From: Enchytraeus crypticus
Taxonomy: Eukaryota; Annelida; Clitellata; Enchytraeida; Enchytraeidae
Direction: 5' to 3'
DNA length: 64,000 bases
NCBI GenBank assembly: GCA_905160935.1
Contig: CAJHZI010000536.1
Coordinates: 431,001 to 495,000, forward strand
Shown: piece after piece, positions 604 through 60,914 of the stretch
Position numbering within the stretch: position 1 is the stretch's first letter
Layout of the letters: every line of letters starts with the position of its first letter
The notes under the pieces: model-generated
What the model saw: the letters and a program-made list of their open reading frames with translations, nothing else
What the model was told of the DNA's origin: nothing
Databases searched by the model: none
Made by a program: the position numbers and the translations under genes

Positions 604-768
604 CTGCCAGTGTCCAACTCAAAAAGCTAATGCTAACGTCAGTTTGCTCAATTGAGGGCCATGTCAGTGACGAGCGAGCTCAGGATTTGAACCCCGCACA
701 TACTGAACCGCGGTCGAATAACTTACCGACATCGCCACTGACTCCAGCCGCACTGTTACCAGTGGGTG
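604..768 (-). repeat. SINE1: tRNA-derived SINE copy
   Basis: Read on the - strand, the unit contains a pol III A box like TGGCGATGTCGG, then a B box GGTTCAAATCC about 40 bases later, followed by a tRNA-unrelated body ending in TTAGCATTAGCTTT. It matches the + strand copies at 14634-14772 and 23521-23665 along nearly its whole length. The two boxes fit the tRNA-promoter consensus, so this is a SINE of the tRNA class. Confidence 0.8.
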
Positions 769-2482: not shown

Positions 2483-2916
2483 TTGCGTGACGTCATGTGT
2501 TGACAGGACTGTTTATTTATTGATTTATAATAAATAAATAGAATTTTGATTAAATTTATCGTCTAGAGTGAATAGTTTTAGACTTGATTAAATACATTGG
2601 CGTACTATTAACTTAGTTCATAGTTCTAAGTTATATTGTTAATCTGTTATATAGTTAATTTGTATCAAAATCAATTTACGGTTTTGACCGTTATGTTACC
2701 GTTATAGTTGATTCCTTTGCAGTTATTTTATACTGCTTTTACTCTTTAAATTGTTAAAGTTATCGTGTTTATGTTTGATCGTTAGGTAATTATTGCATAT
2801 TTGTATCATTTTATGTAATTTGTGTAATATTATATTGAAATTTATATTGTACTTTCTGTATTGATTACAATTACTGATTAGTCAGTTTTGTAAGCATATT
2901 TCGATCGAGAATTCCT

Positions 2917-5757
2917 GTTAATTCTCTTCGAAGCAATATTTCTCTTTGCTCTCTTAATATTCGATCCCTCTCTAACTCGGACCATATCATTACTTTGCAT
3001 GATTTGGCTGAGACTCACAAGTTTGACTGCTTTGCCATCAGTGAAACTTGGCTTTCCTCTATAACCACTCCTTCTGAACTGATGTCTATTGTTCCTTCAG
3101 GCTATGATATGTTTATTGCAAATCGTGACTCTAGGATATCTGGTGCTAAGGGTGGTGGAGTTGCTCTCCTACTAAGGAAGCCCTTTACCCTTCTTAGCAA
3201 TGACTGTCATAAATTTTCTTCATTTGAAGCAATTTCAGTCACTGGTAAATTTGGCACTGTACTCTGCATGTTGTTGCAGTGTATCGACCACCATCTTCCT
3301 CCACATATGCCAAACCTTTCTCTCTCTTTTTATCGGAGTTTTCTGCCCTACTCTCCTTCCTTACTACTTCTAAATCAGACTTTGTGACCTCAACATTCAC
3401 CTTGATAATCCTTAACTCAGCAGTTTAATACTTTGCTGTCCTCTTGTAATGCTGTTCACCTTTGTGAATGTTGCTACTCATATTGACCATCATACACTTG
3501 ATGTTGTTATTACACCAAGTCTCTCTGCTATTGATCCTTTAAGTGTTAATATTTTATCTCACTCACCGTCTGACCATTTTCCTGTTGTATTCACTTATAA
3601 TCATGATACTATTAAAAACTCATCCATTTTTTAATATAGGTGTGTTAATAATGTTGATCTTGATCTCTTTTATTCTGATCTTGAAAATTCGACTTTGATC
3701 AAGTTTCCTTCTAATGATCTTTATGAATTAGTAAAACAGTATAACACTACTCTTTCATCTCTACTTGATAAGCATGCACCTCTAACTACCAAGAAGCTTA
3801 AGAAATCTAACCCTTGATACACCTCTGATTTGAGAAAGCTAAAGGCTGCATGCTGTAGAGCTGAAAGAAAGTGGCGTCATACCCATTCAGATTTTTGGAA
3901 AACTGTTTCTAATTTGCAACACAAGATTTATCGTACTGCTATTGCTATTGCTAAGAAAGAATACTACTCCTCTTTGGTCAGTAAGGCTGTGAATGTCAAG
4001 AGTTTATGGAAAACTGTTAATGATCTATTACAAAGATCTAATTCTCCTTCTCTTCCTTCTACTCCTGTTGAGTCGCTTCCTGAACAATTTTCCAGTTACT
4101 TTAGTGATATGATAAGCAATCTTCGAGCATCTATCTCTCGAGCTCCTAACTCTACTCATACTCCAGTAGAGACTCATTCCAAGGACGAACTTTCTAATTT
4201 CACTCCAGTTACAATTGAGGAGATTACTAAATTAGTTTTAGACTCTCAAGCCAAACATTGTGACTTAGACCCTATCCCAACCTCTCTTTTAAAGAAGTGT
4301 ATTTTACTTGCTCCTGTATTAACAATGATTGTTAATCTCTCTACTGGCATATTTCCTTGTGCTTTAAGCTTGCAGTTATTACTCCATTGCTTAAAAAGCT
4401 CACACTAGATAGGAATCATTGTCGAATTGCTGGCCTAGATCTAATTTATCATACATTTCTAAACTTACTAAAAGAATTGTTCTTCAGAGGCTCTCTACTC
4501 ATCTCTCTTGCAATGATCTATTTAATAAGCTTCAAGCTGCTTATACTAAGCATCGTTCAACTGAAACGGTGCTTCTATCTGTGCAATTCTATTGTTAATG
4601 CCATGTGCACACAACGCTTAACTGGATTATGTATGCTTGATATTTCGGCCGCTTTTGATACCATTGATCACAATATTCTTCTGTCACGTCTATCTACCTG
4701 GTTCGGTAATCGTGGAATTGTTCTTGATTGGTTTTCCTCCTGTCTGACATATCGTTCTTTGAAAGTGATGGAGAGCATCTCTTCGCCTTCCCATTTAAAG
4801 TATGGTGTGCCTCAAGGCTCCGTTTTTGGTCATATCCTCCTCAACCTCTATACAGCACCCTCTGATATCTCATTCTCTTAATTATGAACTATATGCTGAT
4901 GAGACTCAAATGTACACTTGTTTCATCCCTAACTCCTACTCTGATGTTAAAAATATCCTGCAGCAAAGTTTCCGGTCTATATCCTCTTGGATGTCTGCTA
5001 ATTTTTTGGCACTTAATCCATCTAAGACTGAATTCTTGTTGGTTGGGACACCTCAAGAGCTTCTGGAGCCGAATGAGAAAACTCTTTCGTTATCCTTCGG
5101 GTATTAAAATATCACCTGTTTCTTCTGTGAGAAATGCCGGTGTTATCCTTGATAAACACCTAACCTTCCACGAATACATATCTAAAGCTTCACAAGCATG
5201 TTTCTTTCTTATCCGAGATCTTCGTCGAATACGTCCGTATTTGTCACGTGAGACAGCTGCTACAATTGGTGCTGCCAGTGTGCAATCGAAATTGGACTAC
5301 TGCAATTCCCTGTTTTTAAATCTCCCTGGCTGTTAGATTGATCCATTGCAGTTTGTTCAGAATTCTCTTGCGCGAGCTTTTTTTGTAGTTCTAAGTATTC
5401 ACATGTTACGCCCATATTAAAGTCTTTACACTGGCTAAAGATTAAAGAGCGTATCATTTACAAAACAGCTTCGTTAACCTATAAGTCCATTACCATCCCT
5501 GGACAAACTTGTATCTCTCACTTCATTAAAGTGATGCAGCCTGCTGTTTCTCGGTCTTCTAAATTAATTACTCTTGTGAGACCTAGCTTACCTTCGCGCG
5601 CTAAGCTATCTAATCGTTCTTTCCGGCATGCTGCACCGCAGATCTGGAATTCTCTTCCATCCAATCTTCGGAAATCTTCATTTGAACACATCGGCCTTTG
5701 CTTTCCTATGAGCAATTCCATAGGCAGTTGAAGACATATCTTTTTCATCTCTCTTTT

Positions 5758-5760
<3 letters not shown>
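2917..5760 (+). pseudogene. LINE1 copy A: decayed CR1/L2-type non-LTR retrotransposon
   Basis: A 2.8 kb copy of a non-LTR retrotransposon, aligned by eye with copy B at 43316-46424. The order is an APE-type endonuclease (SLNIRSLSNSDH, then FAISETWLSS and KGGGVALLL), a linker with HSDFWKTVSNLQHKIYR, then the reverse transcriptase with LDISAAFDTIDHNIL, YGVPQGSV and a damaged YADE (YADD in copy B). The C-terminal region ends with PSNLRKSSFE. The frame is broken many times: a 10-base deletion near 3385, stops near 3386 and 3815, and frameshifts around 4370 and 4870. The 3' UTR is missing and is replaced by (TA)n at 5761. It lies in the intron of the patched-domain gene, in the same orientation as that gene. 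It cannot encode an active protein. Confidence 0.9.

Positions 5761-5829
<69 letters not shown>
5761..5829. repeat. Compound (TA)n(TG)n microsatellite
   Basis: About 22 TA units are followed by about 12 TG units, exactly at the broken 3' end of LINE1 copy A. Confidence 0.92.
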
Positions 5830-10611: not shown

Positions 10612-11283
10612 GTTGGTATCTTTATTTTGAACGGTGCGGTATCATCTATTCTTTCAATTGCTGCACTTGCGTTGGGTACGTCCTTCATATTTGTGTCTTG
10701 CTTCAAGACAATGCTTCTAGCTTTTATCCTCGGAGTCTTACATTCCATTATCTTTCTTCCCGTAATGCTCAGTTTCGTTGGCCCCAGACGTACAAGTAAG
10801 CCACGGATGTATGTACCAGTCTCGCCTAGTGTTCGATCACTCCAGGATAACTACACCCCTTGTAATTCTGTTTCTCAAACGGTTTGCTCGCCTCGATTGG
10901 GCGATGATCTAATAACGCATGAACCAGTATCAATTGATGAAACCTTACTTGGAGCGGTGGGTGGTTGTAGCACAGCTACCACTTCAATTGCTGATGACGA
11001 CTCAAACTCAAGTAGTGCCACCTATCGAAGTGATAAGGAACCTTCGAGTTTGCTACGTAAGGTGTCCTTTAAGATCGACGATAAATCAGACCGAGTTGAT
11101 GATATAACACAAGCAAATGCTGATTCAGAACGGTGTGGTTTGGAAAGCTCAGGTTCAGGCAGCAGCGGATCTTTAATTGGGAAATGTAGACTAGAGGGGA
11201 AAAGAAGCCAAGATGTCGAGACACAGACTGTTGGTAGATTGTTTGATACCATTCAAGAGATTACAGAGGAATCTGACGTGTAA
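10612..11283 (+). CDS. Patched-domain membrane protein, last coding exon
   Basis: The acceptor TATGTTTTAG (10602-10611) opens a phase-0 exon of 223 codons ending in TAA at 11281-11283, and it joins in frame to the exon at 1286-1702. The first ~60 residues give the last two transmembrane helices: ILNGAVSSILSIAALALG, a short FIFVSCFKTM linker, then LLAFILGVLHSIIFLPVMLS followed by FVGP. The 'G.LH...FLPV.LS..GP' block is characteristic of Patched/PTCHD proteins at this place. The remaining ~155 residues form a hydrophilic, Ser/Asp/Glu-rich cytoplasmic tail with no recognised domain. A (TA)n tract begins six bases after the stop, so the 3' UTR is mostly microsatellite. Loss of this exon would remove the end of the second 5-TM bundle, so both exons are needed for function. 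Confidence 0.87.
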   Translation, partial: VGIFILNGAVSSILSIAALALGTSFIFVSCFKTMLLAFILGVLHSIIFLPVMLSFVGPRRTSKPRMYVPVSPSVRSLQDNYTPCNSVSQTVCSPRLGDDLITHEPVSIDETLLGAVGGCSTATTSIADDDSNSSSATYRSDKEPSSLLRKVSFKIDDKSDRVDDITQANADSERCGLESSGSGSSGSLIGKCRLEGKRSQDVETQTVGRLFDTIQEITEESDV

Positions 11284-14399: not shown

Positions 14400-15544
14400 C
14401 ATAGGCGTAACCACGGCCGAAAATCTGGAGAGGACACAATCATTGGCGTATCCACGGGGGGGGGCGAGAGTCTGCCCCCCCCCCCCCCTTAGGCCCGCCG
14501 ATAAAAGAACAGTAAACTATATTTTCATTGTTTTTATGACAATTTCTATGTGTAAATATGTATGTAAGGGCAGTGGTTAGGGGGGGGGGGGGTGGAATTA
14601 GTTTCACTAGCATACACAGTACAACTATCGGCTGGAGCCAGTGGCGAAGTCGGTAAGGTACTCGACCGCGGATCAGTGTGTGAGGGGTTCAAATCCTGTG
14701 CTAGGCCCTCACTGACATTGCTTTAGAGTGAGGAAACTGACGTTAACATTAGCTTTACCAGCTTTTACCTTTCAAAAATCGATCCACTGGCAGTGGCCTT
14801 GACCTGCACTGTAGAAGCAGCGCCGTGCGAAAATTCCTCGAGACTTTCTAACAAAACTCTGAATGATACTATGAAATTGCATTTATAACTTTCAGATTTC
14901 AAAATCGAAATTAATAATGTATTAATTCTTACCAGACGTGGCTTCTTGGTCTTTAACAGAAATTTATCCACTATGCAATTATGCAGAACTTGGTTTACTG
15001 TCTATGAATTTATATTGTAACGAACTCCATAAGCTAAACATTTACGCATATTTTTCAGAGCATCTACTGATGGTTGATAATTCTACCTCTCAAGATACAA
15101 TAGGCCTATCACCGCCTATGCAGCCGCACACTCGGGTTAAGCCAATAAAGTTTCATCCCGCTTAGCTCGGCAAGTTAGCACTCTCCCATATTTCGTCACA
15201 CTCACTACATCGGTCGCTCAACCCTGTAGTCTCCTATATACTACTAAAGTATGTGACAGTATATAGGAGTCTGTGGCCAAGCATACATAGTACAACTACA
15301 GATGCCAATAATTAATATCACGTAAGCGTATCAGTTTACCACTTGATCTAAACACGGTACTATAAATTCTAGTAATACTTACACATGCAGTTATTGGGCG
15401 ACATTGAAAATACGCACAATCTCTTACATAAAGTATATATATTTGAGCCTAAATTCTGGGGGGGGGACATTTGCATGCATGTTCCCCCAGTCTAAATGCT
15501 GGGGGGACGTGTCCCCCCTGTTCCCTCCTGTAGTTACTCCAATG
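14400..15544. mobile_element. hAT-like DNA element inserted in LINE1 copy C
   Basis: This 1.1 kb insertion is flanked by an 8-bp direct repeat AGCACTAT at 14392-14399 and 15545-15552. Its ends are imperfect inverted repeats: CATAGGCGTAACCAC on the left and, on the other strand, CATTGGAGTAACTAC on the right. The 8-bp duplication fits hAT transposition. A second similar terminus (CATTGGCGTATCCACGGGGG) occurs at 14441, followed by G and C homopolymers, so at least one related element may be nested. A SINE1 copy lies inside at 14634-14772. No transposase was found, so the element is non-autonomous. Confidence 0.75.
14634..14772 (+). repeat. SINE1 copy
   Basis: The A box TGGCGAAGTCGG lies at about 14642-14653. 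The B box GGTTCAAATCC follows about 35 bases later, and the body ends TTAGCTTTACCAGCTTTTA. Both boxes match the pol III internal promoter consensus exactly. It sits inside the hAT-like element. Confidence 0.85.
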
Positions 15545-17345
15545 AGCACTATTGAGACAAAATCAAGCCGGCGACCAAAAAATGGTCCAAAAACAGTGCA
15601 AATTTCCAAAATCCAAATTTAAGGGAATTAAAGAAAAGGAGGTTTAGGAGCAGGTCGCAACTCATGGACACTGGATGGAAAGAGAGGTGAAAAGATAGGC
15701 CTTGAACTGCCTATGAAACCGCTCATAGGAAAGCAAAGGCTGATGTGATTCAAATGAAGATTTCCGAAGATTGGATGGAAGAGAATGCCAGATCTGAGGT
15801 GCAGCATGCTGGAAAGAACGATTAGATAGCTTAGAGCGTGAAGGTAAGCTAGGTCTCACAAGATTAATTAACTTAGAAGACCGAGTAATAGCAGGCTGCA
15901 TCACTTTACTCAAGTGAGCCATACAAGTTGGTCCAGGGATGGTGATGGACTTAGGTTAACGAAGCTGTTTTGTAAATGATACGCTCTTTAATATTTAGCC
16001 AGTGCAAAGACTTTAATTAGGCGTAACATGTGAGTACTTGGAACTACAATAAAATGTCTCGCACAAAAGAATTCGGAACAAACTGAAACAGATCAATCTC
16101 ACAGCCAGGAAGATTTAAAAACAGGGCAGGTCAGTAGAATAAAATAGGGCATGGCAGTAGTTCAACTTCGATTGCACAACGGCTGCACCAAATACTGTCC
16201 AAATTCACCAATTATAGCAGCTGTCTCACGTTACAAATATGGAAGAATTCGACGAAGATCACTGAATAAACATGCTTGTGAAGTTTTAGTTATGTGTTCA
16301 TGGAAGCTTAGGTGTTAATCAAGGATTACACTGAGATTTTTCAATGAAGAAACAGGTTATGTTGTAATACCCGAAGATAACAAATGAGTTTTCCCATTCA
16401 GCTACAGAAGCTGTTGAGGTGTCCCAACCAACAAAAATTCAGTCTTAGATGGATTAAGTGCCACAAACTTATCAAACGTCCAAAAGGATATATACTGAAA
16501 AGATTGCTGCAGGAGGATTTCAGCAGCAGAATAGGAGTTAGGGGTGAAACAAGTGTACTTGTGAGTATCATCAGCATATAGTCTATGATTAAGAGAATGA
16601 GAGATCAGAGAGCTTAAGGGTGCTGTATAGAGGTTGAAGAGTATATGACCAAGAACGGAGCCTTGAGGCACACCATACTTTAAATGGGAAGGCGAAGAGA
16701 TGTACTCATCACTTTCAAAGAACGATACGTCAGATAGGAGGAAAACAAATCAAGAATATTGAATATTTTTGATATTTTAGAATATTGTGATCAAAAGCGG
16801 CCGAAAGATCAAGCATACATAATCCAGTTAAGCGTTGTGTGCACATGGCATTAATAATAGAATTGCACAGATAGAAGCACCGTTTCAGTTGAACGATGCT
16901 TAGTATAAGCAGCTTGAAGCTTATTAAATAGATCATTGCAAGAGAGATGAGTAGAGAGCCTCTGAAGAACAATTCTTTTAGTGAGTTTAGAAATGTATGA
17001 TAAATTAGATCTAGGTCTGCAATTCGGCAATGATTCCCATCTAGTATGGACTTTTTAAGCAATGCAGTAATGACTGCAAGCTTGAAAGCCAAGAGGAAGC
17101 CTTGCAAGAGGAAAAATGCCAGCAGATATTGGTGAATGCACTTCTTCAAGAAAGAAGTTGGGATAGGGTCTAAGTCACATTGTTTGGCTAGAGAGGATAA
17201 AACTAATTTAGTAATCTCTTCAATAGTAACTGGAGTGAAATTAGAAAGTTCGTCTTTGGAATGAGTCTCTACTGGAGTATGAGGAGTAAAATTAGGAGCA
17301 GGAGTGATAGATGCTCTAAGATTACTTATCCTATAAGTGGAAAAT
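15545..17345 (-). pseudogene. LINE1 copy C: 5'-truncated non-LTR retrotransposon
   Basis: On the - strand this covers the LINE1 linker, reverse transcriptase and 3' UTR. Recognisable pieces are FFLEEVHSPIS-like linker remnants, LTGLCMLDLSAAFD, MPQGSVLGHILFNLYTAPLS and YADDTHKYTCFTPNSY, then LVRPSLPSRSKLSNRSF and QIWHSLPSNLRKSSFE near 15720-15860. Frameshifts and small indels break the ORF (for example after AFDHNIL near 16780 and around 16090-16150). The 3' tip is displaced to 14352-14399 by the hAT-like insertion. Confidence 0.88.
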
Positions 17346-17920
17346 TTTTCAGGCAGTCGCTCAACAATCTGCTGCGTGTACGCAAGTCGACTAAGGCATA
17401 TTCGTTAATTCTATCTTGTAACTCCAATACTCATAGCGGGTGACAGGAACGCTTAACTACAAATCATGTAAATGGCCAGAGGCCCATCAGCTAACGGGCT
17501 GAGAAGACTGATCGATTATTTGTGATATGTGAGCGTTGATAAAAGCGTTAAACAGTATTAAATGTTCGTATATTATATATATTAAATATATAAAATAAAA
17601 ATACTTTTTTTGCCTCAGTGCTCAATGTAAAGTCAGAATCTGCTGCAGCTTGCTAGAATTCATGTATGTTTGCAGCTTCTCAGACTGCACGAGAATTTCA
17701 GTGTCATTACAGTTTGCGTCTAACCTTTAACCGTCGCCAACTGTATACCCTGGCCATTTTTAACGCTCATCATTGCCGGTGAATTACAATAGCGTGCCAG
17801 GGGCTGCGGCATGTCTGATAAAATATAATTAGTCACATAAGATACTATCTAATTTAATTCCACGTTCAATAGAAGATGATGCCTACTACACGTATGCCTA
17901 CTTGCTTCACGATTCAACTA
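17346..17920. other. R4-like fragment and unique sequence
   Basis: Positions 17358-17400 (CAACAATCTGCTGCGTGTAC) resemble the middle of repeat R4 at 18650. The remainder, downstream of RPS3A, has no recognised feature. Confidence 0.45.
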
Positions 17921-21300: not shown

Positions 21301-24300
21301 GATGATTTAAAGGTTCATTCATATCATATGTGGACATTAAGAGGAAAGCGCAAGACCGAGAAGCGAGGTGTTCTATAACATGGACCTGTCAGTAGGCAAC
21401 GCACTAAAGAGATATTAATTTCTTGGAATAGATGTAGAATTTCAGAAAAAATTCTGTACATTGCATGCAACGAATGCAATTTTAAATAACTTCAGAATAT
21501 AACATAGTATTGATTACAAACAAGAAACTATCAGCGAATTGTTGTTGAACATTTTTCTTATTCCAGGGTAGGTGAGTGCTTACAACCTTGAAAGAACCCA
21601 TTTTTCATTGCAAAATGACACCAATCTTTCATGACACCAGTTCTCTACAGTGCCAAAAACTGTCCAAGTGGCAAAAACGCTGCTGGCAAAAGTTTTTATT
21701 ATCTTGACCAAAAAACTGTCAAAACACATGAAAGCACATGTTGAAAATCATGCAGACACACGCCCATGGTATATAACCACATAAAACAAGCTCAGCATCT
21801 ATCGAGCACATCTTCTTTAACCTTGGCTTAATAAACTGCAAATATTGCTACCATCTATAACGTGCTAAGGTAGTGGTCCCAAAAATGGGGCTTAGAATTC
21901 AATGTGGACAAGTGTAAGGTAATTCACTTCCGTAAAAATAACCCTAATAAAGAATATGTTGTAAATAATAATATACTGCAAGTAGTGAGTGAGAAGGATT
22001 TAGGGGTAATATCCAGGACCTCAAAGTGAGGAAACAATGTACTGTGGCTGTTAAAGCAGCCAATATGATCTTAGGAATATTAAGTGGAATATTAAAACTC
22101 AAAAGTGCAGATAAAGGCATTGTTTTAATCTTTGATTCGATCTCATCTGGAGTATTTGTCAGTGTGGAGACAACACTACAAGAAGGATATTAAACTTATT
22201 GAAGCAGTGCAAAAAGAAGTATTCGGAACTATTAGGGGATTCAGGTATTAAGGTACGAGAGGCTATGAGCAGTTTAACTGACAACCCTAGAAACTAGGAG
22301 AATTGGAGGTGATCTAGAGGTTTATAAAACAATGCATGGGCTTACCGAATTAAGAGCAATAGATTTTTTCAATTCTCCAATATTGGTTTAGGAGGTCATA
22401 GCTAGAAGTCGTTTAAGCCTAGTGTAAGTACAGACTTAGAAAAGTTTTCCTTTTCTTAAGGGTGATCGATAGGTGGAACTCTTTCAGCGAGGAGTTTGTG
22501 AATGCAGTGTCAGTGAATAGTTTTAAAACCATGTGTGATTGGGGATTGAAATAAGCCCGTGGCTTTCTACCCTTGTTCCTACTACCTAAGTTTGAAGGAT
22601 TGGAATAACGAAAGATGGTAGCAATTCTGATAAATCTGATCCAAAACGCTGTTGCCAAATTGGTTTTTTGATACTCAATCTTGTCAAAATCTTGCGCTCA
22701 CAAGCTTGGATTTCTTGGAATTCTAACTTTGCAGAGTCAACAGGTCAACAAAGACAAAACTTTTATTGCTGACACATAGAATTAGCCAGATGTTGTTTTA
22801 TAAAATATAATTGGCGGTATAACTTTGAGGGCAGTAAACTAGTTCAGTTAGGCTACTAATTCAATCAAATATTGAGGAGCTACTGATTCAAATATTGAGG
22901 AACTTGCATTACGGAATCTTTTTGATGAGTGATAATTTTAAATTGTTGACACTTACAACGCTTGCATTAAAATTTCAAATCAAATTCTATGCTATAGACG
23001 ATTCTAATATATAATTAAAATACAATTAACCCTCATATATCTAGCTACTCAAAAATATTTTCTGACCGCTTTTTGGTTAGCCAGAGTAAAATTCCTTATT
23101 ACAAATGCTGGTGCAGAAGTAACAGATTTAAGTTAAAATACTGCGGTGTTTCTGGAATATTATTTTTATTTTAGTTCAACATTATTAATAATTATTTGTA
23201 CCAAAAGTCTACAGCCAGAGACAGGTCGACCGGGTCTCGAATGTCAGGCCACTTCCAGTGATATATTATCAACACTTATTTTATTTAATGAATCAAATAG
23301 AAATATGCAAGTTAAAAATACTACAAAAAGAGTGTGATTGAGCAATGGAGTTGAGAGACTGTATGATAAGCAGGCTCAACAACGATACTCAACACTATGA
23401 TCTACCTGATGATCAAAACTTATCACTCAACTATCAGAGATACAAGCCAGACCATAATACATCAGGCAATTAAAGGTAACTTTAAAAAAAATTTAACTAC
23501 ATTCAATGCCTATGTAACACCTGACTAAAAGTTAGTGGTGATGTCGGTAAGTTATTTGACAGCGGATCAGTATGTGCAGGGTTCAAATCCTGGGCTCGCC
23601 CATCACTGACATCGCTTTCAAGTGAGGAAACTGATTTTAACATTAGCTTTACCAGCTTTTTAATAGTTACACTGCACTTACGATCAAATCTTGGTTTCTT
23701 TAGACACTTGACCTTGCGGATGTACACATCGTGTAGAGGATAGATTCCCTGACAGACTTTTTCAATATCCTTACCGATACTGTCTGGAATTCTAATCAAT
23801 AATAAAGATTACACTAATCAGTATTACACATCGAATTGCATTACAATAACTAACTAGTTACAATTAAATGTTATTACGCGATGTCTTTAGTCAATCTGTA
23901 GTCCTGTCTACTGCCTATTGAAAATGATCTCAGAAATGAAATGTATCTTTTTATTATTAAAAAGAGCATTTTAGAATCCAATATAGGGATATGGTAAACC
24001 TTTTAAACCTTTTCTATAGGAGTAAGTTTAGCTCAGAAGTAAAATAAATACTTGTGAAATTGCAAATGAGTACCTGTTATTAAACTGTAACACAATGCAG
24101 AATTAAAAGAACTATATTAAATATAAATTATTTCAAAGAATGAAATTTAAAAAGAATTTTATTCAAGAACTTAAGTCTATTTGTGCTAGAGTTAAATATT
24201 TATTCCAAATTTATAATTTAAAAACGCTTTGCAATGTACAAAATTATTTATTATTGATAACCACTTAGTTAGCTGAATAGGCTTAATTACTGTGTGTTCT

Positions 24301-38078: not shown

Positions 38079-38087
38079 GCCGTCATT

Positions 38088-38184
38088 ATTATTTCTAGTA
38101 TTATTTTTATTATCATCATCATTAGCCTTATTAATAAATCAAACATAATCGCAGAATTATGAACACACAGAAACACACACAGAC

Positions 38185-38272
<88 letters not shown>

Positions 38273-38375
38273 GTCTGTGTGTGTTTCTGTGTGTGTATAT
38301 TCTGCGATTATGTTTGATTTATTAATAAGGCTAATGATGATGATGATGATGATAATAAAAATAATACTAGAAATA

Positions 38376-38377
<2 letters not shown>
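38088..38377. repeat. 290-bp near-perfect palindrome with (TA)n centre
   Basis: The left arm (ATTATTTCTAGTATTATTTT ... CACACACAGACAG) and right arm (CTGTCTGTGTGTG ... AATACTAGAAATAAT) are reverse complements over about 100 bases each. Only small GAT-repeat and 1-2 base differences separate them. About 42 TA units form the centre (38187-38270). A single strand could fold into one long hairpin. Confidence 0.95.
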
Positions 38378-38449
<72 letters not shown>

Positions 38450-38480: not shown

Positions 38481-39910
38481 AGTTTGAATATCTCAGGATC
38501 AGAATCATGATTAGAAAAGGAAATATATAGTTCTGTGTCGTCTGCATAGAAATGAAAATTTATGAAGGACTGAGCAAGCAGGTAGCTAAGAGGAGTGATA
38601 TATAAAGAGAAGAGCAATGGACCTAACACTGAACCTTGAGGAACACCGCGTAGGAGGGGTAGTTCAGAAGAGCGATTTTGACAACCGATTGTGTGCGACA
38701 TGAGAGATATGATGTGAGAAGGGAAGAAGCAGAATCAGAGATGGCAAAACAAGATTTAAGTCTATTTACTAGAATGCCTTGGTCAATTATATCGAAGGCA
38801 GCAGAGAGATCCAGAAGAACCAAGGCAGAAACCTGTTTACTACTCATGGCCAAGCTAAGATCATTATGTATACGAAGAAGAGCGGTGTCAGTAGAATGAA
38901 ATTTTCTATAGGCAGATAGATAATGAAAGAGAGAAGGGAAGGAATCAAGATGAGCATAAACGGGTATATATTACCTTTTCAAGAAGTTTAGAGATGAAGT
39001 TAAGATTGGAAATAGGACGGTAACTGGAAAGATCATCTTTTGGTAGAGAAGGCGTTTTCAGCAAAGGAGATACAACTGCTTGTTTGAAGGAGGTCGGGAA
39101 GATACCTTCTGAGAGTGAGAGGTTGATTAAGTAAGTAATAGGAGCAACTAAAACATCAATACAGGATTTCAGTAAGCGTGTAGGAATAACATCAAGGCAG
39201 CAAGATGAGTCGGTAGAGCGAAGTATAAAATTGCGTATTTCTTCCGGTTTAGCTGGTTCAAAACTAGAAAGTAGTGGTGGTTCAGGCATATTTACAGAAA
39301 TGAAGTTGTCGGTGTCAATGGAGTTGGAGGGTATAGAGCTACAGAGTTGGGCTATTTTGTCATCGAAAAAGTTGAGAAAAGAGGTAGCAAGAGAAGATGG
39401 TGAGGTGGTAGAGTGACTTGGGAATGGTGCCATCAAGCAGAGAGTCAAGTGCTCCCCATAATTTCTTGGGACAATTTTGATTCTGCGAGATTAGATTTTG
39501 ATAATACAAGCTTTTAGCAGAACTAAAACTGTTGAATGAGTTCAGGTTTATTTAGACTTTTTGTAATAGTTGTGGCAGACATTGAGGCAGCAAGTGGACA
39601 GGTTAGAAAAAGAAGAAACAGGGCCAGGATTCAACTCAACATCGCCTGCTAGAATTAAAAGAAAGGAAAGAAAGAAGTTTAAATGTCGTTTAGAAGTGAG
39701 ATTAAGTGAAACAAAATGAAGATAGGATTTGGAAAAGTATGGCAAAGGTAAAGAATGAAAGCATTGACAAACGGAGGCATGCGGTATAGGTTGGTAAGTG
39801 AGTTTGCATGAGGAAGAAATACGGTCAATGGAACTGCCAGTGAAATGGTTGGTCATTTGTGGAGTAGTGAGGGCTAAAACAAGACAAATTGAAAGAAAGA
39901 GCAATGAAAG
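38480..39910 (-). pseudogene. LINE2 5' half: 2A-containing non-LTR retrotransposon
   Basis: Read on the - strand. The N-terminal part (39904-39548) contains a hydrophobic run, then a 2A-like DVELNPGP motif, then LSTCCLNVCHN, the start of the endonuclease. The endonuclease itself is largely deleted between about 39548 and 39450. Next (39448-38945) comes the segment before the RT with DDKIAQL, CCLDVIPTRLLK, INLSLSEGIFPTSFKQAVV and SYRPISNLNFISKLLEK. RT palm pieces follow: LVLLDLSAAFDIIDQGIL (38800) and [16 protein letters not shown] with [12 protein letters not shown] (38520-38640). The catalytic YADD is intact, but frameshifts occur near 38945 and 38690. The 3' half is missing: after NHDSD the sequence runs into a mariner-like terminus and (TA)n. 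Confidence 0.88.
39620..39643 (-). other. 2A-like ribosome-skipping motif in LINE2
   Basis: The codons GAT GTT GAG TTG AAT CCT GGC CCT encode DVELNPGP, preceded by LLILAG. This matches the D(V/I)ExNPGP consensus of 2A sequences, which make the ribosome skip the Gly-Pro bond and release the upstream peptide. 2A-like sequences are known at the N-terminus of some LINE ORFs in invertebrates. Activity here is inferred from the motif. Confidence 0.85.
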
Positions 39911-40694
39911 TACATCTATAGCATGAAAAATGGGAAATGATTTCTTTCTGTTGGGTGAAGCAGAAAGAAATCAACCAATTAAAGTAAAGGAAAAACATTC
40001 TAGGATAAAAAGGTGTTTAAATATTAGGATCAAAAGCGCGGTAAAAAGTGAAAATTTTAAAACAAATATGTTTAAACCATTACCGTAAATTAGAAGAAAA
40101 TGAATGTATATTAAAATGTAGAAAATTATAAGTAATATAGTAGAGCACAAAAAATGCACAAAACGCCCTTCAAACGGTCATAATTATTTTATATATTATT
40201 ATTCAATTATTATTATAGCACCCAAGCCAATCAGCCGGAAATATTAAAAGTAGTAGATAATTAACGTTTATCTCTTACTCTCAATAGCCTACGAACCATA
40301 ATATTTTACTTAGATAATTTATTCAATTATTCATTTACCGGTTCATTAAATGTTCGAGATATTAGTAGTTTTCTGATCAGCCTTCCATGGAAATCACACG
40401 CTTATTCAGCCCGTAGACTGCCTATAATTTTAATCTCATTAAATCCAGCTTTTATATACTCTAGGCCTATAGGCCCCTACCTTAACACAAAAGGTTAAAG
40501 CGCATTTGAAAATAATTATAAATAATATCTTATAATTTTATTTACTATAAATGTCGATTTTTTGACTAGTTTTCTCTTCTATTAATTAAACGAAAGCAAG
40601 GTTTGAAACATTGTATTAGACCTATATGATATTAATGAACAAAATTATCACATAGATGAACAATAAACGAATAAATGAAACAATTGAGTTTGTA

Positions 40695-41214: not shown

Positions 41215-42105
41215 TGGCATTTCCAATTCAGCTTCGGAAGTTGAATGGGAAAACTCTTTCGTTATCTTCGGATATTACAATAACACCCGTTTCTTCTGAG
41301 AGAAATCTCGGTGTTATCCTTGATAGACACCTAACCTTCCACGAACACATAAGTAAAAAGGTTCTTTCATATCCGAGATCTTCGTCGAATACGTCCATAT
41401 TTGTCACGTGAGACAGCTGCTACAATTGGTGCTGCCATTGTGCAATCGAATTTGGACTACTGCTATTCCGTTTTTAAATCTCCCTGGCTGCGAGATTGAT
41501 CGATTGCAGTTTGTTCAGAATTCTCTTGCGCGAGCAAATTTTTTGTAGTTCCAAGTACTCACATGTTACGCCCATTTTAAAGTCTTTGCACTGCCTAAAG
41601 ATTAAAGAGCGTATCATTTACAAAACAGCTTCGTTAACCTTTAAGTCCATCATCATCCCTGGACAAACTTGTATGTCTTACTTGATTAAAGTGATGCAGC
41701 CTGCTGTTACTTGGTCTTCTAAATTAATTACTCTTGCGAGACCTAGCTTACCTTCACGCTATCTAAGCGTTCTTTCCAGCATGCTGCACCGCAGATCTGG
41801 AATTCTCTTCCACCCAATCTTCGGAAATTTTCATTTGAATCACATCGGCCTTTGCTTTCCTAGCAATTCCAGAGGCAGTTGAAGATCTATCTTTTCCATC
41901 TCTCTTTCCATCCAGTGTCCATGAGCAGCGACCTGCGCCTAAACCTCCTTTTCTTTAAATTCCTTTTACTTTGGACTGATTATCTGGATTTTGGAATTTG
42001 CACCGTTTTTGGACCTCCTTTTTGATCGCCGGCTTGATTTTGTCTTAATAGTGCTCGACGTTGTCATTGATGACTGTAGCACTCTAATTGTTGTTACGTT
42101 ATGGC
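41215..42105 (+). pseudogene. LINE1 copy E: 5'-truncated
   Basis: It begins inside the RT C-terminal region (GKTLSLSSDITITPVSSERN, LGVILDRHLTFHEHIS) and continues through LKIKERIIYKTASLTFKS, and ARPSLPSRYLS, to the 3' UTR ending GTAGCACTCTAATTGTTGTT at about 42075-42098. Small deletions break the frame, for example near 41360 and 41470. It is collinear with copy B from 45540 onward. Confidence 0.88.
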
Positions 42106-43292: not shown

Positions 43293-43315
43293 GATAGTGA
43301 ATCCATTTTTTTTCC

Positions 43316-46300
43316 GGTTAATTCTCTTCGAAGCAATATTTCTCTTTGCTCTCTTAACATCCGATGCCTCTCTAACTCAGACCATATCATTGCTTTGCAT
43401 GATTTGGCTGAGACTCACAAGTTTGACAGTTTTGCTATCAGTGAAACTTGGTTTTCCTCTATAACCACTCCTTCTGAACTGGTGTCTATTCTTCCTCCAG
43501 GTTATGATATGTTTATTGCAAATCGTGACTCTAGGACATCTGGTGCTAAGGGTGGTGGAGTTGCTCTCCTACTAAGGAAGCCCTTTACCCTTCTTAGCAA
43601 TGACTTTCATAAATTTTCTTCATTTGAAGCAATTTCAGTCACTGGTAAATTTGGCTCATGTACTCCGCATGTTGTTGCAGTGTATCGACCGCCATCTTCT
43701 TCCCCCTATGCCAAACCTTTCTCTCTCTTTTTATCGGAGTTTTCTACCCTACTCTCCTTCCTTACTACTCTAAATCAGACTTTGTGATTACAGGTGACCT
43801 CAACATTCACCTTGATAATCCTCTTGATCCCTTAACTCAGCAGTTTAATACTTTGCTGTCCTCTTGTAATGCTGTTCAACATGTGAATGTTGCTACTCAT
43901 ATTGACGATCAGACACTTGATGTTGTTATTACACCAAGTCTCTCTGCTATTGATCCTTTAAGTGTTACTATTTTATCTCACTCGCCGTCAGACCGTTTTC
44001 CTGTTGTATTCACTTATAATCATGTTAAGCCAGATACTATTAAAAATTCACCTACTGTTTCATTCAGGTGTGTAAATAACGTTGATCTTGATATCTTTTG
44101 TTCTGATCTTGAAAATTCGACATTGATCAAGTCTCCTGCTAATGATCTTGATGAATTAGTAAAACAGTATAACACTACTTTTTCATCTCTACTTGCTAAG
44201 CATGCACCTCTAACTACCAAGAAGCTTAAGAAATGTAACCCTTGGTATACTTCTGGTCTGAGAAAGCCAAAAGGCTGCATGCTGTAGAGCTGAAAGGAAG
44301 TGGCGTCATACCCATTCAGATTTTTGGAAAACTGTTTCTAATTTGCAACACAAGATTTATCGTACTGCTATTGCTAATGCTAAGAAAGAGTACTACTCCT
44401 CTTTGGTCAGTAAGGCTGTGAATGTCAAGAGTTTATGGAAAACCGTTAATGATCTTTTACATAGATCTATTTCTCCTTCTCTTCCTTCTACTCCTGTGGA
44501 GTCACTGCCTGAACAATTTTCCAAATGCTTTACAGATAAGATAAGCAATTTTAGTGAATCTATCACTCCAGCTCCTAACTCTACACCTCATACTCCAGTA
44601 GAGAATCATTCCAAAGATAAGCTTTCTAATTTCACTCCAGTTACAATTGATGAGATTACTAAATTAGTTTAAGACTCTCCAGCTAAACATTGTGATTTGG
44701 ATCCTATCTCTCTTTTAAAGAAGTGTATTCACATACTTGCTCCAGTATTAACATTGATTGTTAACATTGACCTCTCTCTCTCTCTACTTCTCTACTGGCA
44801 AATTTCCTCGCGCTTTTAAGCGTGCAGTTATTACTCCATTGCTTAAAAAGCCCACACAGGATAAGGAATTATGGTCGAATTCCAGGCCTATATCTAATCT
44901 GTCATACATATCTAAGCTCACTGAAAGAATTTTACTTCAGAGGCTTTCTACTCATCTCTCTTGCAATGATCTATTTAATAGGCATCAGCTGCTTATATTA
45001 AGCATCGTTCAACTGAAACGGTGTTTCTATCTGTGTGCAATTCTATTGTTAATGCCAAGTGCACACAACGCTTAACTGGATTATGTATGCTTGATCTTTC
45101 GGCCGCTTTTGATACCATTGATCACAATATTCTTCTGGAACGTCTTTCTTCCTGGTTTGGTGTTCGTGGAATTGTTCTTGATTGGTTTTCCTCCTATCTG
45201 ACGGATCGTTCTTTTAGTGTGAAAGTGATGGAGTACATCTCTTCGCCTTCTCACTTAAAGTATGGTGTGCCTCAAGGCTCCGTTCTTGGTCCTATCCTCT
45301 TTAACCTCTATACAACACCCCTAAGCACTCTAATCTCTTCTCATTCTCTTGATCATGAACTATATGCTGATGACACTCAAATGTACACTTGTTTCACCCC
45401 TAACTCCTATTCTAAAGCTGAAACCCTCCTACAACAAAGTTTTCAGTCTATATCCTCTTGGATGTCTGCTAATTTCTTGGCACTTAATCCATCTAAGCCT
45501 GAATTCTTGTTGGTCGGGACACCTCAACAGCTTCTGAAGCTGAATGGGAAAACTCTTTCGTTATCTTCGGGTATTAAAATATCACCTGTTTCTTCTGTGA
45601 GAAATCTCGGTGTTATCCTTGATAAACACCTAACCTTCCACGAACACATAACTAAAACTTCACAAGCATGTTTCCTCCATATCCGTGATCTTCGTCGAAT
45701 ACGTCCATATGTGTCACGTGAGACAGCAGCTACAATTGGTGCAGCTCTTGTGCAATCGAAGTTGGACTACGGCAATTCCCTGTTTTTAAATCTCTCTGGC
45801 TGTGAGATTGATCGGTTGCAGTTTGTTCAGAATTCTCTTGTGCAAGCAATTTTTTGTAGTTCCAAGTACTCACATGTTACGCCTATTTCGAAGTCTTTGC
45901 ACTGGCTAAAGATTAAAGAGCGTATCATTTACAAAACAGCTTCGTTAACCTATAAGTCCATCATCATCCCTGGACAAACTTGTATGTCTCACTTGATTTA
46001 AGTGATGCAGCCTGCTATTACTCGGTCTTCTAAGTTAATTAATCTTGTGAGACCTAGCTTACCTTCACGCTATCTAAGCGTTCTTTCCAGCATGCTGCAC
46101 CGCAGATCTGGAATTCTCTTCCATCCAATCTTCGGAAATCTTCATTTGAATCACATCAGCCTTTGCTTTCCTATGAGCAGTTCCATAAGCAGTTGAAGAC
46201 CTATCCTTTTCATCTATCTTTTCCATCCAGTGTCCATGAGCAGCGACCTGCGCCTAAACCACCTTTTCTTTAACTCCCTTTACTTTGGACTGAATTTCTG

Positions 46301-50299: not shown

Positions 50300-51137
50300 G
50301 CATCACGCTTTGACCTGTGTAATCAGCCAAAGCTCTCTAGCTCTCTACCACAGAGGTCATATATTTTATGAATATGCAGTGATCCGGCTTGTCATTCTCT
50401 TTGTATAGGATTCTATTAAAGGCTACCATGTCATCAACCATAATCGACTTCATTATCTTCTTAGAGCGGAACTGTTTGAGTGCCGAGAGGTTCATCCCGT
50501 CGTTGTTGCCGAGGTGAATATAGCCGACGAAGGAGGTGGGCTTGAAGCCCGTGTCAACGAGAAAGTCAATGAGTACAGACTTTCGCTTCTTCTGACCAGA
50601 CTTGAAGTCATCACCTCCGATGTATATCTTTAAACACTCAGCCAGAACAGTTGCTTCGGGCACACAGGAGTTCTGAGGACTTCCGTAGATGAAGGAGCAA
50701 CCCTCTAGTATGGACCCTACGGTGAATAGAGTGGAGGGCGACACGTCTGCCTCACTCCATCTGATGGAAGAGATAAGATTATCAGTCGTGTCATAGAGTC
50801 CCGCCCTTATATCATTGAATCTTTCAGTGATCGCTGTCCACAACGCTATCGCCTTATCCACACCCGACTCAGACTTGAACTTTCTGATGTCCTGTCTGAG
50901 GTGCTGGAGATGCTCAAACTTGTCCTTACCAGAGAATCATATTGTCCACTTCATTGCAGCCCTTCTGGCGGTGGCCAGAAGGGCTGCAATGAAGTCAGGA
51001 TAGTAGATGAAGGGTCGTGTCGTAAGATCCTCCATATGTGTACGAGAATCAAAATCCAGTATTTTAGCTGGCACCAAAATATTGGCAAGATTCCAATTCG
51101 AGATGTCCCAACTATGGAAAATACCCATTGGCGGCAA
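50300..51137 (-). pseudogene. ISYNA1: myo-inositol-3-phosphate synthase retropseudogene fragment
   Basis: On the - strand, intron-free sequence matches the central part of myo-inositol-3-phosphate synthase, the NAD-dependent enzyme that turns glucose 6-phosphate into inositol 3-phosphate. Segments in order are FHSWDISNWNLA (WDISSLNLA in the family), IYYPDFIAA, DKFEHLQHLRQDIRKFKS, ALWTAITERF (normally WTANTERF), VSPSTLFTVGSILEGCSF, GSPQNS, IGGDDFKSGQ, HLGNNDGMNLSA and KIMKSIMVDDMV. The frame then meets TAG where the family has Lys (ES*RALADYT). After DYT the similarity stops and an unrelated Pro/Ser-rich frame continues to 50091. A foldback insertion lies after FIAA. The N- and C-terminal thirds of the enzyme are missing. 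Absence of introns suggests a decayed retrocopy, but I cannot exclude a broken gene copy. Confidence 0.85.
50948..50995. repeat. 22-bp perfect hairpin inside the ISYNA1 pseudogene
   Basis: The arms 50948-50969 and 50974-50995 (ACTTCATTGCAGCCCTTCTG... and its complement) are perfectly complementary, with a 4-base loop GGTG. One arm covers normal coding sequence for DFIAA; the other is an inverted copy that replaces the expected codons. Confidence 0.95.
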
Positions 51138-56169: not shown

Positions 56170-56565
56170 AGTGAAACAGGAATGCATGTTTCCTCATACA
56201 AGGATGATGTCATGGACGTCCCCACAGCACACATCACTACAGATCAATTCACCCAAATCAATTTCAGCAGAAGAAATGTGCTGCGGAGAAGTAAGGTCCT
56301 AAACGAAAACCGGTCCGGTGATCAAAATTGGTCAAGGTAGATCGATTAAATCTACGGTGGGAAAAGCTAAGCCTTAAGCTTACTAAAGTAGAAAGTTGAA
56401 AGAGAAGAACAAGGGCGCAAATAAATAGGTGAAGAACTCCAGATTGTGGGTGCTGAATAAGAAAATGAACGTCTGCCCAATGATGTGAGCATATTTGGAA
56501 CAAAGAGAAGATTGGCATCAGTGGAACGAAGTGCACTTGAGGGACGATAGGGAAGAAAAATTTCA
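56170..56565 (-). repeat. LINE2 3' end, second copy
   Basis: On the - strand it encodes the C-terminal LPYRPSSALRSTDANLLFVP and RRSFSYSAPTIWSS, then the 3' UTR down to about 56190. It lies directly next to, and in the same orientation as, the copy at 56586-59010. Confidence 0.8.
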
Positions 56566-56585
56566 GATAATAATAATAATAAAAA

Positions 56586-59010
56586 AGGTTTAACGTCCGT
56601 TTTCCTCATCCAGGGATGATGTCAGGGACGTCCCCAACAGCACACATCACTACAGATCAGTTCACCCAGACCAATCTGCAAAAGAAATGTGCTGAGGAGA
56701 AGTAAGGTCCTAAACGAAAGCCAGTCCGGTGATCAAAAAATGGTCAGGGTAGATTGATTATGTCTATGGTGGGAAAAGGTAAGTCTTAAACTTGCTAGAG
56801 AATGTTGAAAGAGAAAAACAAGAGCAAAGATTAGCATGTAAAGAGTAGAGATGGGAATTTTATAAATTTCCACAGTTCGGGTTCGGTTCGTTAAAAATGA
56901 AAGTTCGGTTCGGGTTCGGTTAGCAGTTGACAATTTGAGAGTTCGGTTCGGTTCGTTGAATATGAAAGATCGGTTCGGTTCTAACAAGGGTTCGAGTTTG
57001 GCTTGCTTTCCAACTCGCAAGAGTTTGATTCGAGTTCGAAATGATTTGGTTTGGATAACGTTGCAATTGTTTAACTTTACTTATAATAATCAAGGTTATG
57101 ACAAACATGTTTAAAATGGTTTATGGTAAATAAGCTTAAAAATTCATTAAGTCATAATAGCTGCCACATTTTTTCACCTTAGTAAAACTATGACAATGAA
57201 AAAAGGAGAGAAGTGTATTTATTCTTGTACATTTCTTAAAATATTGTAAGTTGATCAACAAATGTTCATAATATAGATATTTAGCTTTATTATTGTATCT
57301 GAAATATTCTCCTTGATTATAACGAGCAAATAGAATGCTTCATCAATTTTAAATTTTTTTTGTCACTATAGGCCTATATATTAAATACGTCTATAATTAA
57401 GTGGAAATGTCTTGGATAAAATTTGATCCAAGATTTCAGAGCCAAAGTGCAATTTAGTAGCATAAAAATGTCAAATAAAGATGATTTGGTAAACACGTGT
57501 ACTTCCATAGAAAAATGATCATAATATGCTATCAACTGACCAGTAATAAGCTTCATAATTTACCTTAGGGCTTCAAATTTGAAACTCTCAGATCAATTGT
57601 GAAGTCATGAAAATAGTTATGAAATTATTGCATTGCTACGGTTCAAAATTATTTACTCCAGATAGTTTTAACACATATAGAATGTCATATATAATTATTT
57701 GTAAATCTGGCTGCAAAAATATTAAGGTAGCACAATAAAATTAGAAAAAATTCATAATTTGAATTTAACAAGAACAAATCCACCTAGATTAAGTCAAGCA
57801 TTTTCAGATTTTTAAGGAATACTCTCATCACTTTTGTCTCTTTGATGTTAATCTTCATTCCAAATTTCAATGCCGTATCATTCAGACTATCCATTATCTT
57901 CTATAGGCCTGTCTCGCTTCCCGCTAACATTTCTTTGTACAGCTACCATATTAAAATTTGTATCAGAACCAGCCTTACCTGAATATATGCTGATAGATAC
58001 TGTAAGACATGTAAATGCAAAAACTAATATATATTTGTATTGTTCTTACTATCTTTATTTAATGTCAGGCTGGTGAAGTAGAAAGGAACTATAAGAGTTT
58101 GGTTCAGTTCGGTTTGTACGAAGTATGGGTTCGGGTTCGGTTCGGCCAGAGTCTGGGTTCGGTTCGGGTTCGGTCAGAGTCTCGGTTCGAGTTCGGTTCG
58201 GTCAAAATTCTTGATTTTAGGGTTCGGTCCGGTTCGGGTTCGGTTCGAATCCCATCTCTAGTAAAGAGTTCCAGATTGTAGGTGCTGCGTAAGAAAATGA
58301 ACGTCTGCCCAATGATGTGAGAATATTTTCAACAGAGAGAAGATTGGCATCAGTGGAACGAAGTGCACGTGAGGGACGATAGGGAAAAAGAATTTCATAT
58401 AAGTAAGAAGGCTTGCCAAATCGCAGAGTTTCGAAAGTTAATAGAGCTATTTTATATTTTATGCGTTGATTAACAGGGAGCCAGTGAAGACTGTGTAGTA
58501 GACAAAGAGAGCGAAATTGAAGTCGAGAGGACTTGCAAACAACACGTGCAAGAGAATTTTGGACGTGATGCAAATGATTAAGAGAAGAAGTAGGCAACCC
58601 ATGAAATAATGAATTACAGTAGTCGAGCTTTGAATGAACTATAGAATTAGCAAGGATAGTGGCTGAATTTTTAGTAAGAGATGGACGTATTTGCCTAATC
58701 TGACGAATCTGAAAGAAAGAAGCGCAACAAACAGAAGAGATATGGGATTTAAAGTCAAGGTTTTCATCAAATGTGACTCCAAGGTTTTTGGCGGATCGAG
58801 AAGGTGAAAGAGTAAGATTCTGAAAATAAACAGAGTTATTAGCAATTTTTTATCTTTGCAAAGGAGTGCCAATTAAAAGGTATTCAGTTTTGGAGGGATT
58901 AACAGTAAGACGATTAGCACAAAACCAGGAATAAACCTTGTCTAGAATGGATGATAGATGAGCCAGTTTCTGATCGGAATCATGATTAGAAAAGGAAATA
59001 TATACATTGT
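56586..59010 (-). pseudogene. LINE2 3' half, interrupted by an hAT-like element
   Basis: On the - strand it starts at [11 protein letters not shown], just after the RT YADD box, and continues HLSSILDKVYSWFCANRLTV, NPSKTEYLLIGTP, and a ...SRLDYCNSLFHGLPTSSLN-type region. It then reads HVQNSLARVVCKSSR, LHWLPVNQRIKYKIALLTF and LRSTDANLLSV, ending AAPTIWNSL. The 3' UTR (AGACATAATCAATCTACCCT, GACGTCCCTGACATCATCCC) ends with GGACGTTAAACC and an ATTATTATTATT tail at 56586. The hAT-like insertion at 56846-58260 splits the region just after the ORF. The 5' two thirds of the element are absent. Confidence 0.87.
56846..58260. mobile_element. hAT-like non-autonomous element, 1415 bp
   Basis: The termini TAGAGATGGGA (left) and TCCCATCTCTA (right) are inverted repeats. 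The 8-bp target duplication GTAAAGAG flanks it at 56838-56845 and 58261-58268. These are hAT hallmarks. Just inside both ends are dense GGTTCGG/GGGTTCGG repeats (56873-57000 and 58095-58250), on the same strand at both ends. The interior is AT-rich and encodes no transposase. Apparent ORFs rich in Asn-Arg-Thr-Glu are translations of the GGTTCG repeats. Confidence 0.9.
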
Positions 59011-60914
59011 GTGTTTTAAAACCGATACCCCATATTATTTTTACAATAAAGTCGTAAGGAGTAGACGGAATTTGTGACATTTACAGAACTTGACCAGCAG
59101 CCAATTCTACCAAACATATTGAAATTTTGTTTGAATATCTTTAATAATGTGAAAGTTATAGTATTGCGAATAGGAGTGGGGTCAGATATGAAATTTCCAG
59201 TACAGGATTACGGGCATGTTACATGCAGAGTAAAGTAGTCTCCATAAAAATAATAGCGAACAAGTAACATAAAATTTCTGTTAAAGCTAATTTTAATAGC
59301 AATCATTTCTTTTCAAAACGGCGTAAAATACTTGCTGATATGTTCTTAATTGCCAAAGTTATTGAACTTTTAATGCATGCATTGCAGTAGTACTGCGCTC
59401 TCATCGTCTCACAGCAGCTGAGTTCTCGCCTAGCACATGTAGGCCTAAGGACTTAATGCGTCTTAATGCGTTAGTCTAAGTGCTAAGACTAGTCCCATCT
59501 TTGCGTTGCTCCATCCCTACGATTTAGGCTTTTGGCTCTTGTGCCGATTTACGTAGTGTGACTATACTGGAATCTACGAAGGTAATATAAGGTATTGCGA
59601 TAAGTACTTTAGTAGGTATCTTTTATGTAGACTCATAATAGTTAAGTTATCATAGAACTGATAACTGCGCTCATTCTTACTTTATATTAGAACTATTTCC
59701 TTATTATATTTGTATTTTGTTTATCTGTCTCGTCTCATATATTATTCAGTATATTCATTAGTCAGCTCCTTGTTCCAACTCCTTCGGGCAGCTTTAAGGG
59801 CTTGAATTCTCCGCCTGTGACCTCGCTTTCAGCACGGATGTTCTACCTCTAACTACGGGGAAATCCTTTCTTTTCTGGAGTTGGCTTGTCCAGCGGTGGC
59901 TCGTTATAACCTTCTTCTTTTTTTCTCCTTTCTTTTCCCCAAAGACAGGGTAGTTACCCACAACTTCCTACCCCAAATATATTTAGAGAGAGAGAGAGGG
60001 GAATCAAGGTGCCTGCATAGACGAGTAAAAATTCCCTTTTCAAGTAGTAGATACATGTACTACGTCGAATTCAATATTATTGTTTTAGCTGAACAAATTC
60101 AATGTCAATGGCTATACAAGCACAGGTAACTAATGATTGTGTACAGCATTATAATAATGCACATATTTACATGTACATCTATAGTCATAAACTTTACAGC
60201 ATAATATGCTGTAAAGTTTTCACACTGTAATATAAAAAACCAATTTCTTTATATTTATGCGAAGGTGACAAAGTAGGCCTATGTGTTTAGTGGGATGAGA
60301 ATAATATTGTAGGATAGCAACAGGGGTCAATGAGGACTAAAGACACAAGTCACAAATCATAAATTATATGTAGTCACTGGAATTAGTATTTAAAGTTATT
60401 CAAACAATTAATACTCAACAAATGAGAATCATTTCAATACGTCTACTAACTGCAGAGCCACAGAGCATAAAATACTCAAAGCATAAAATATAAGTAGTGC
60501 TGATTAGAAGATTTACTACAAGATTACTAATACAGCAGAAGTTTGCATACAGACATATGGTATAACTCTAGTTTTTATTAAAGGGAAAACCTAAAACGAT
60601 AAACTACAGAAGTATTTTATTTAACTAACTTAAGCGTATTTTAGCAACATCAGACTTTCATCAGATCGGCAGGAAGAAGAATTGACTGAAGGTATAATAC
60701 TACGACAGCAAAATTGATGTACTGAGAGCCGCAAGTTATGGTAGGGACAGTGCGCGACAAAGTTCTATCAATGGCAGGGTTCAAAGTTCTGGAATGAAAT
60801 TCCAGAACAATCCTTGGCTCGCGTGATTTGTCAAAGACGACGTTATTATTAATCCTGATTAATAGGACGTTATTTTTAATACGACGTCATTATTAACCAG
60901 ACTTCTGATATTCA
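59011..60914. other. No gene recognised
   Basis: It contains a short GA repeat at 59984-59998 and a GCTCGCGTGA/GACGTTATTA area near 60810-60890. A CTTTACAGCATAATATGCTG palindrome occurs at 60192-60219. Nothing has coding character. Confidence 0.4.

Follow-up and report, generated by a model that had tools for sequence, protein, structure and literature searches.

LINEs of the APE type that carry a 2A sequence are already known. A 2013 paper by Odon and colleagues in Mol Biol Evol is said to have described 2A-like sequences in APE-type non-LTR retrotransposons of the clades CR1, L2, Rex1, Crack and Ingi, and the elements that bear them reportedly tend to have one open reading frame (ORF). LINE2 of the annelid Enchytraeus crypticus is a further example of this known kind. 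2A-like signals have also been described for NLR genes of sea urchins; in that report, the 26-aa 2A-like sequence of SpNLR is itself the N-terminal signal of the host gene, and the core 2A motif needs a suitable, less conserved upstream context (Roulston et al., 2016; PMC4981915). An example of viral StopGo motif 6, which belongs to the class with L-rich contexts, was active in reticulocyte lysate (Li et al., 2026; PMC12846837).

The window analyzed here is the whole stretch of 64,000 nucleotides (contig CAJHZI010000536.1, positions 431,001 to 495,000), and the feature under study lies on its minus strand. The feature is probably what is left of the N-terminus in a dead copy of an APE-type non-LTR retrotransposon with a single ORF. 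The family places leader, 2A, endonuclease and RT in one frame, and its 2A is predicted to skip. Its parts, in the order in which the element is read, are as follows:

39999..40145, minus strand: rest of the 5' untranslated region; the copy is 5' truncated, and the family 5' end lies about 399 nt before MTNHF
39857..39998, minus strand: upstream extension of the leader, from an ATG at 39996-39998 (the relatives read MFFLYFNW...); in this copy shifted by one nucleotide against the rest of the frame
39620..39856, minus strand: leader frame from its Met (MTNHFTG...) through NPGP, 79 codons; under purifying selection in the family
39644..39685, minus strand: L-rich context HLNFFLSFLLILAG upstream of the 2A, like the L-rich motifs 2 and 6 of PMC12846837
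39620..39643, minus strand: 2A/StopGo octapeptide DVELNPGP, where skipping is predicted to separate the G from the final P; intact in 40/53 distinct copies
39526..39619, minus strand: first codons of the endonuclease, frameshifted, up to the junction of a deletion of ~953 bp
38497..39526, minus strand: remnant of the pre-RT region and reverse transcriptase (RT) of the LINE2 window copy; 95% DNA match to the related loci L031 and L038

The first-pass annotation had reported DVELNPGP preceded by LLILAG, and both are present: positions 39620-39643 encode the octapeptide, preceded by HLNFFLSFLLILAG, within a Met-led frame of 102 aa (39551-39856, minus strand). This site is the single match to D-x-E-x-NPG across the six frames of the window. 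Under a first-order Markov model of the window, the octapeptide is expected 2.7e-5 times per window by chance, both strands counted, and none of 400 windows simulated with such a model contained it. The initial residues of the endonuclease, NLSTCCLNV, come after the motif. The 2A ends at residue 79 when counted from MTNHF, or at about residue 126 when counted from the upstream ATG. The hydrophobic run adjoining the motif is short, and the best 19-residue Kyte–Doolittle window of the 79-aa leader reaches 1.31. A hydrophobic leader had been proposed on the strength of this run, which is mainly upstream context of the 2A; a longer hydrophobic stretch does exist in most copies, but it lies further upstream and, in the window copy, in a different frame.

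The LINE2 copy in the window is dead. Aligned to its relatives, it is 5' truncated and starts at 40145, the upstream part of its leader is shifted one nucleotide out of frame, and a frameshift follows about 15 codons past the motif. A deletion of about 953 bp removed the endonuclease, so that leader and pre-RT region now meet at 39526, from where RT sequence runs on to about 38497 (with a weak PF00078 match, E 0.022, in the segment 38945-39490). The motif had been placed just before the LINE2 endonuclease, which is correct for the first endonuclease residues, whereas in this copy the frame is then lost and the endonuclease deleted. Splicing was rejected as the cause of the endonuclease loss, as the junction has no GT..AG border. 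Among the fetched loci, the exact 26-base junction word occurs only in the window copy itself (L001). Beside the copy, the stretch 38087-38378 and its reverse complement match at 92%, a feature of TA-rich microsatellites.

The relatives of this copy were sought in the assembly of 524 Mb (802 contigs). From a search with the leader protein, the best 150 of 397 LINE2 candidates were scored, all with E 5.8e-35 or better, and most of the 150 align over residues 1 to 93 of the leader protein. Fetching yielded 65 oriented LINE2 loci, many of them duplicates in which one place had been fetched twice, leaving 53 distinct copies; the codon statistics exclude L042, and the analysis with 71 copies excludes L060 as a duplicate of L058. 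D[VI]ExNPGP is intact in the leader frame of 40 of the 53 distinct copies (51 of 72 in a larger set), and the octapeptide is lost in the other 13, some of them with long frames. The long frames without an intact motif are those of L034 (NPDP, 856 aa), L043 (HPGP, 534 aa) and L040 (motif deleted, 614 aa), and these losses look like decay after insertion. Each residue of LLILAG is retained in 66-70 of 71 copies. The sequence around the motif distinguishes three or more subfamilies (DVEL/VSSFS, DVEL/VSSVS and DIEL/VSSS). Further fragments that match the later part of LINE2-family loci lie in the window at 58261-59014 and 56188-56846 (minus strand).

As a DNA pattern, D[VI]ExNPGP occurs at 160 sites genome-wide (71 + 89) and the reversed pattern at none, whereas about 0.22 chance sites would be expected when the Markov model of the window is scaled to the genome on the assumption of window composition throughout. 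One hundred of the 160 sites were listed and nine of those fetched for inspection; eight of these nine resemble LINE2. The exception, L089 (G000:C187:455400-457900), has DIESNPGP at nt 1012 in a frame of 14 aa, with codons unlike those of LINE2, and is probably a chance match, which fits the expectation of about 0.22. A second 2A family in the genome is unsupported among the nine sites inspected of the 100 listed.

The organization of the element was read from 15 longer LINE2 loci (L031-L045). The claim that the 2A stands in frame between leader and endonuclease is borne out by these relatives: in 12 of the 15, the frame continues beyond the place of the motif and enters the endonuclease before a stop ends it, and the motif region is present in 11 of those 12, though not intact in all. 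The frames of L032, L041 and L042 stop earlier. D[VI]ExNPGP thus lies in frame upstream of the endonuclease in copies of the family. Three of the 15 loci reach the YADD part of the RT in one frame, namely L031 and L033, with an intact motif, and L034, with NPDP. The 983-aa frame of L031 holds an APE endonuclease domain and a reverse transcriptase together (PF03372, 2.4e-14, from residue 132; PF14529, 2e-7; PF00078, 1.5e-33), and the proline of its NPGP is residue 119. This frame is cut on its 5' side, where the family match starts only at -93, and shifts near its end; no complete ORF was seen among the copies examined. The start of the element lies exactly at -399 from the MTNHF codon in 12 of the 53 distinct copies and between -403 and -395 in 18 of them, while seven copies besides the query match it further upstream than this shared 5' start. 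The element starts about 399 nt before the leader ATG and therefore has no room for an ORF1 upstream of the leader; LINE2 is a single-ORF element. The L031 locus also contains, about 3.8 kb past the leader, a repeat of 126-136 bp that is found in the window at 623-749 (plus strand), 14630-14765 and 23534-23659 (both minus strand) and is perhaps a SINE.

Selection on the leader was assessed by classing variants common to several copies as synonymous or nonsynonymous; shared variants were used because they mostly should predate insertion. For the leader (237 nt) in the ORF frame, omega was 0.20-0.37 with 52 copies (P 1.7e-4 to 8.6e-4) and 0.24-0.51 with 71 copies (P 3.9e-4 to 2.5e-3). The endonuclease gave 0.20-0.33 with shared variants. 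The nonsynonymous deficit was not significant in the other two frames of the leader (lowest P 0.15) or in the 5' UTR (lowest P 0.17), and selection on the 2A stretch alone, which has 2-8 variable sites, was not significant either. The leader is thus under purifying selection in the ORF frame, with omega between 0.20 and 0.51. The 71-copy set has no net frameshift in the leader, which carries no weight as evidence, since the search that selected the copies already required a leader in frame.

Translation of the leader appears to start, with moderate confidence, at an ATG 47 codons above MTNHF, which would give a leader of about 125 aa. The frame above MTNHF is open for these 47 codons in most copies. 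The upstream ATG (-141) is intact in all 60 copies that reach it, whereas none of the 136 other triplets in the upstream stretch is invariant, compared with 2.8% of 217 in the 5' UTR. Position -3 is A at the upstream ATG but C at the ATG of MTNHF, and the latter is lost in 2 of 71 copies, one of which is L031 with its frame of 983 aa. Conversely, the leader may begin at MTNHF (79 codons), with the open stretch above it untranslated, a less probable but realistic alternative that is compatible with the best explanation. It draws on an omega in the upstream stretch that is only marginal (0.27-0.60, P 0.031-0.19) and on interruptions there, with an in-frame stop in 3 and a net frameshift in 12 of the 48 copies whose 5' part is complete. 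The hydrophobicity of the stretch points the same way: its 19-residue Kyte–Doolittle mean (2.23-2.28 in three copies; 2.24 in L045) is equalled by 6-17% of open dinucleotide shuffles in these three copies, about 15% of shuffles being open at all, and is not beyond composition. With the upstream ATG as the preferred start, the translated extension would add a hydrophobic stretch to the leader, which is suggestive rather than proven. A signal-peptide-like leader, as first proposed, is possible in this form, as a separate upstream stretch and not as the run seen in the window.

Because the class of motif has known activity, the 2A of LINE2 probably skips, giving a small leader and a separate enzyme from one frame. 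The nascent 2A would most likely stall in the exit tunnel of the ribosome, judging from the known activity of the class; the Gly–Pro bond would be left unmade and the leader released at Gly, and the ribosome would resume at Pro, so that the first residue of the endonuclease–RT would be a Pro, some 13 residues ahead of the endonuclease domain. It is improbable that the motif is a conserved protein stretch that skips weakly or not at all, with leader and endonuclease–RT made mainly as one fusion. Activity is not surely readable from sequence, and the upstream context matters according to PMC4981915; moreover, position 15 is L in LINE2, compared with the S linked to L-rich contexts in PMC12846837. 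Yet the core and its L-rich context are kept in most copies, and the LINE2 form matches a class with tested activity in the latter study. The notion of a chance peptide in degenerate sequence, which the broken window copy might invite, has a negligible probability and is refuted by the expectation per window, the genome-wide counts of forward and reversed patterns and the coding constraint on the leader.

If LINE2 does skip, its leader could serve as a membrane-targeting peptide, an idea that is speculative and rather unlikely: the N-terminal hydrophobic stretch would bring the LINE mRNA and its ribosome to the ER, and the 2A would free the endonuclease–RT in the cytosol beside its own RNA. 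A comparable case is Ty1, where SRP takes part in the translation of the RNA and the Gag protein is directed to the ER (PMC3945221). The 2A reaction is reported to be inhibited by certain upstream proteins upon their translocation into the ER (de Felipe et al., 2010; PMC2978324). Were the leader to insert in the membrane, the enzyme would depend on skipping for its release, and the inhibition at the ER described there would be a cost of the design. Such a combination of a signal sequence and a StopGo would be a cis-localization device for a LINE, and would offer a reason why some LINEs need a StopGo before the enzyme. Otherwise, LINE2 adds a further genome to a pattern that is already known.

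For a second LINE of the same genome, LINE1, a 2A had also been suggested as a possibility. It was followed in 20 copies fetched from the best 150 of 690 candidates scored, and these contradict the suggestion. In 20 of 20 copies, the ATG of MFRSRI directly precedes the codons of PVNSLRSN or variants of it (with a stop as third codon in L074), an in-frame stop lies within 70 codons upstream in 19 of the 20 (L069 being covered in part), and NPGP is absent from the forward frames in the 600 nt upstream of the 20 copies (L069 in part) and of both window copies. The proposal that copies A and B of the window both begin at PVNSLRSN fails for copy A, which runs on upstream into family sequence with IFRSRI where its relatives have MFRSRI, its Met codon being ATA; only copy B is cut there, at the proline codon. 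The LINE1 5' end lies near -421, with 5 of the 18 other copies beginning at one and the same base of the query, L083 (L069 was left out of this comparison), and no ORF1 was found in the region examined. A 2A or ORF1 further up was also considered and rejected: three copies extended by 2 kb have only short matches in common, of 109 and 56 bp, and those frames in the extensions that reach at least 60 aa look unrelated or repetitive. LINE1 and LINE2 are both endonuclease–RT elements, with 32-42% amino acid identity by segment and a 5' region of about 420 nt in LINE1; unlike LINE2, LINE1 has no 2A seen, and its ORF starts MFRSRIPVNSLRSN. In the window, the LINE1 family occupies 2912-5761, 43312-46226 and 41229-42096 (plus strand) and 15544-17366 (minus strand), with other fragments too. 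The window further holds a frame at 50337-50936 (minus strand) that matches myo-inositol-1-phosphate synthase (PF07994, 1.5e-34) and is possibly an exon or a retrocopy, and a frame of 223 aa at 10612-11283 (plus strand) that looks, on visual inspection, like the C-terminal part of a Patched-type protein and has no Pfam match at 0.001.

With 160 motif sites in one genome, LINE2 offers a case where codon statistics show the 2A leader of the family to be selected as protein, and the same genome holds a distant sister LINE, LINE1, without a 2A seen. Titles and the openings of abstracts, within a partial coverage of the literature, gave no description of a LINE whose 2A is preceded by a separate hydrophobic leader at the N-terminus. 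Like the elements of Odon et al. 2013, LINE2 is of the APE type and has a 2A motif in frame, and its one ORF fits the tendency reported for such elements; it may differ in its conserved leader and possible extra hydrophobic stretch at the N-terminus. With the 2A-like signals of the sea urchin NLRs, it shares the position of the 2A core, close to the N-terminus and behind a hydrophobic run (Roulston et al., 2016; PMC4981915), but the 2A of the LINE protein, ending where either start codon would put it (residue 79 or about 126), is not extreme N-terminal as in the SpNLR type. With the viral StopGo motifs 2 and 6, LINE2 shares an L-rich hexapeptide that ends in (A/S/C)G before the D, at position 12, whereas position 15 is L in LINE2 and is associated with S there; the hosts also differ, as LINE2 resides in a cellular genome and these StopGo motifs in RNA viruses (Li et al., 2026; PMC12846837).
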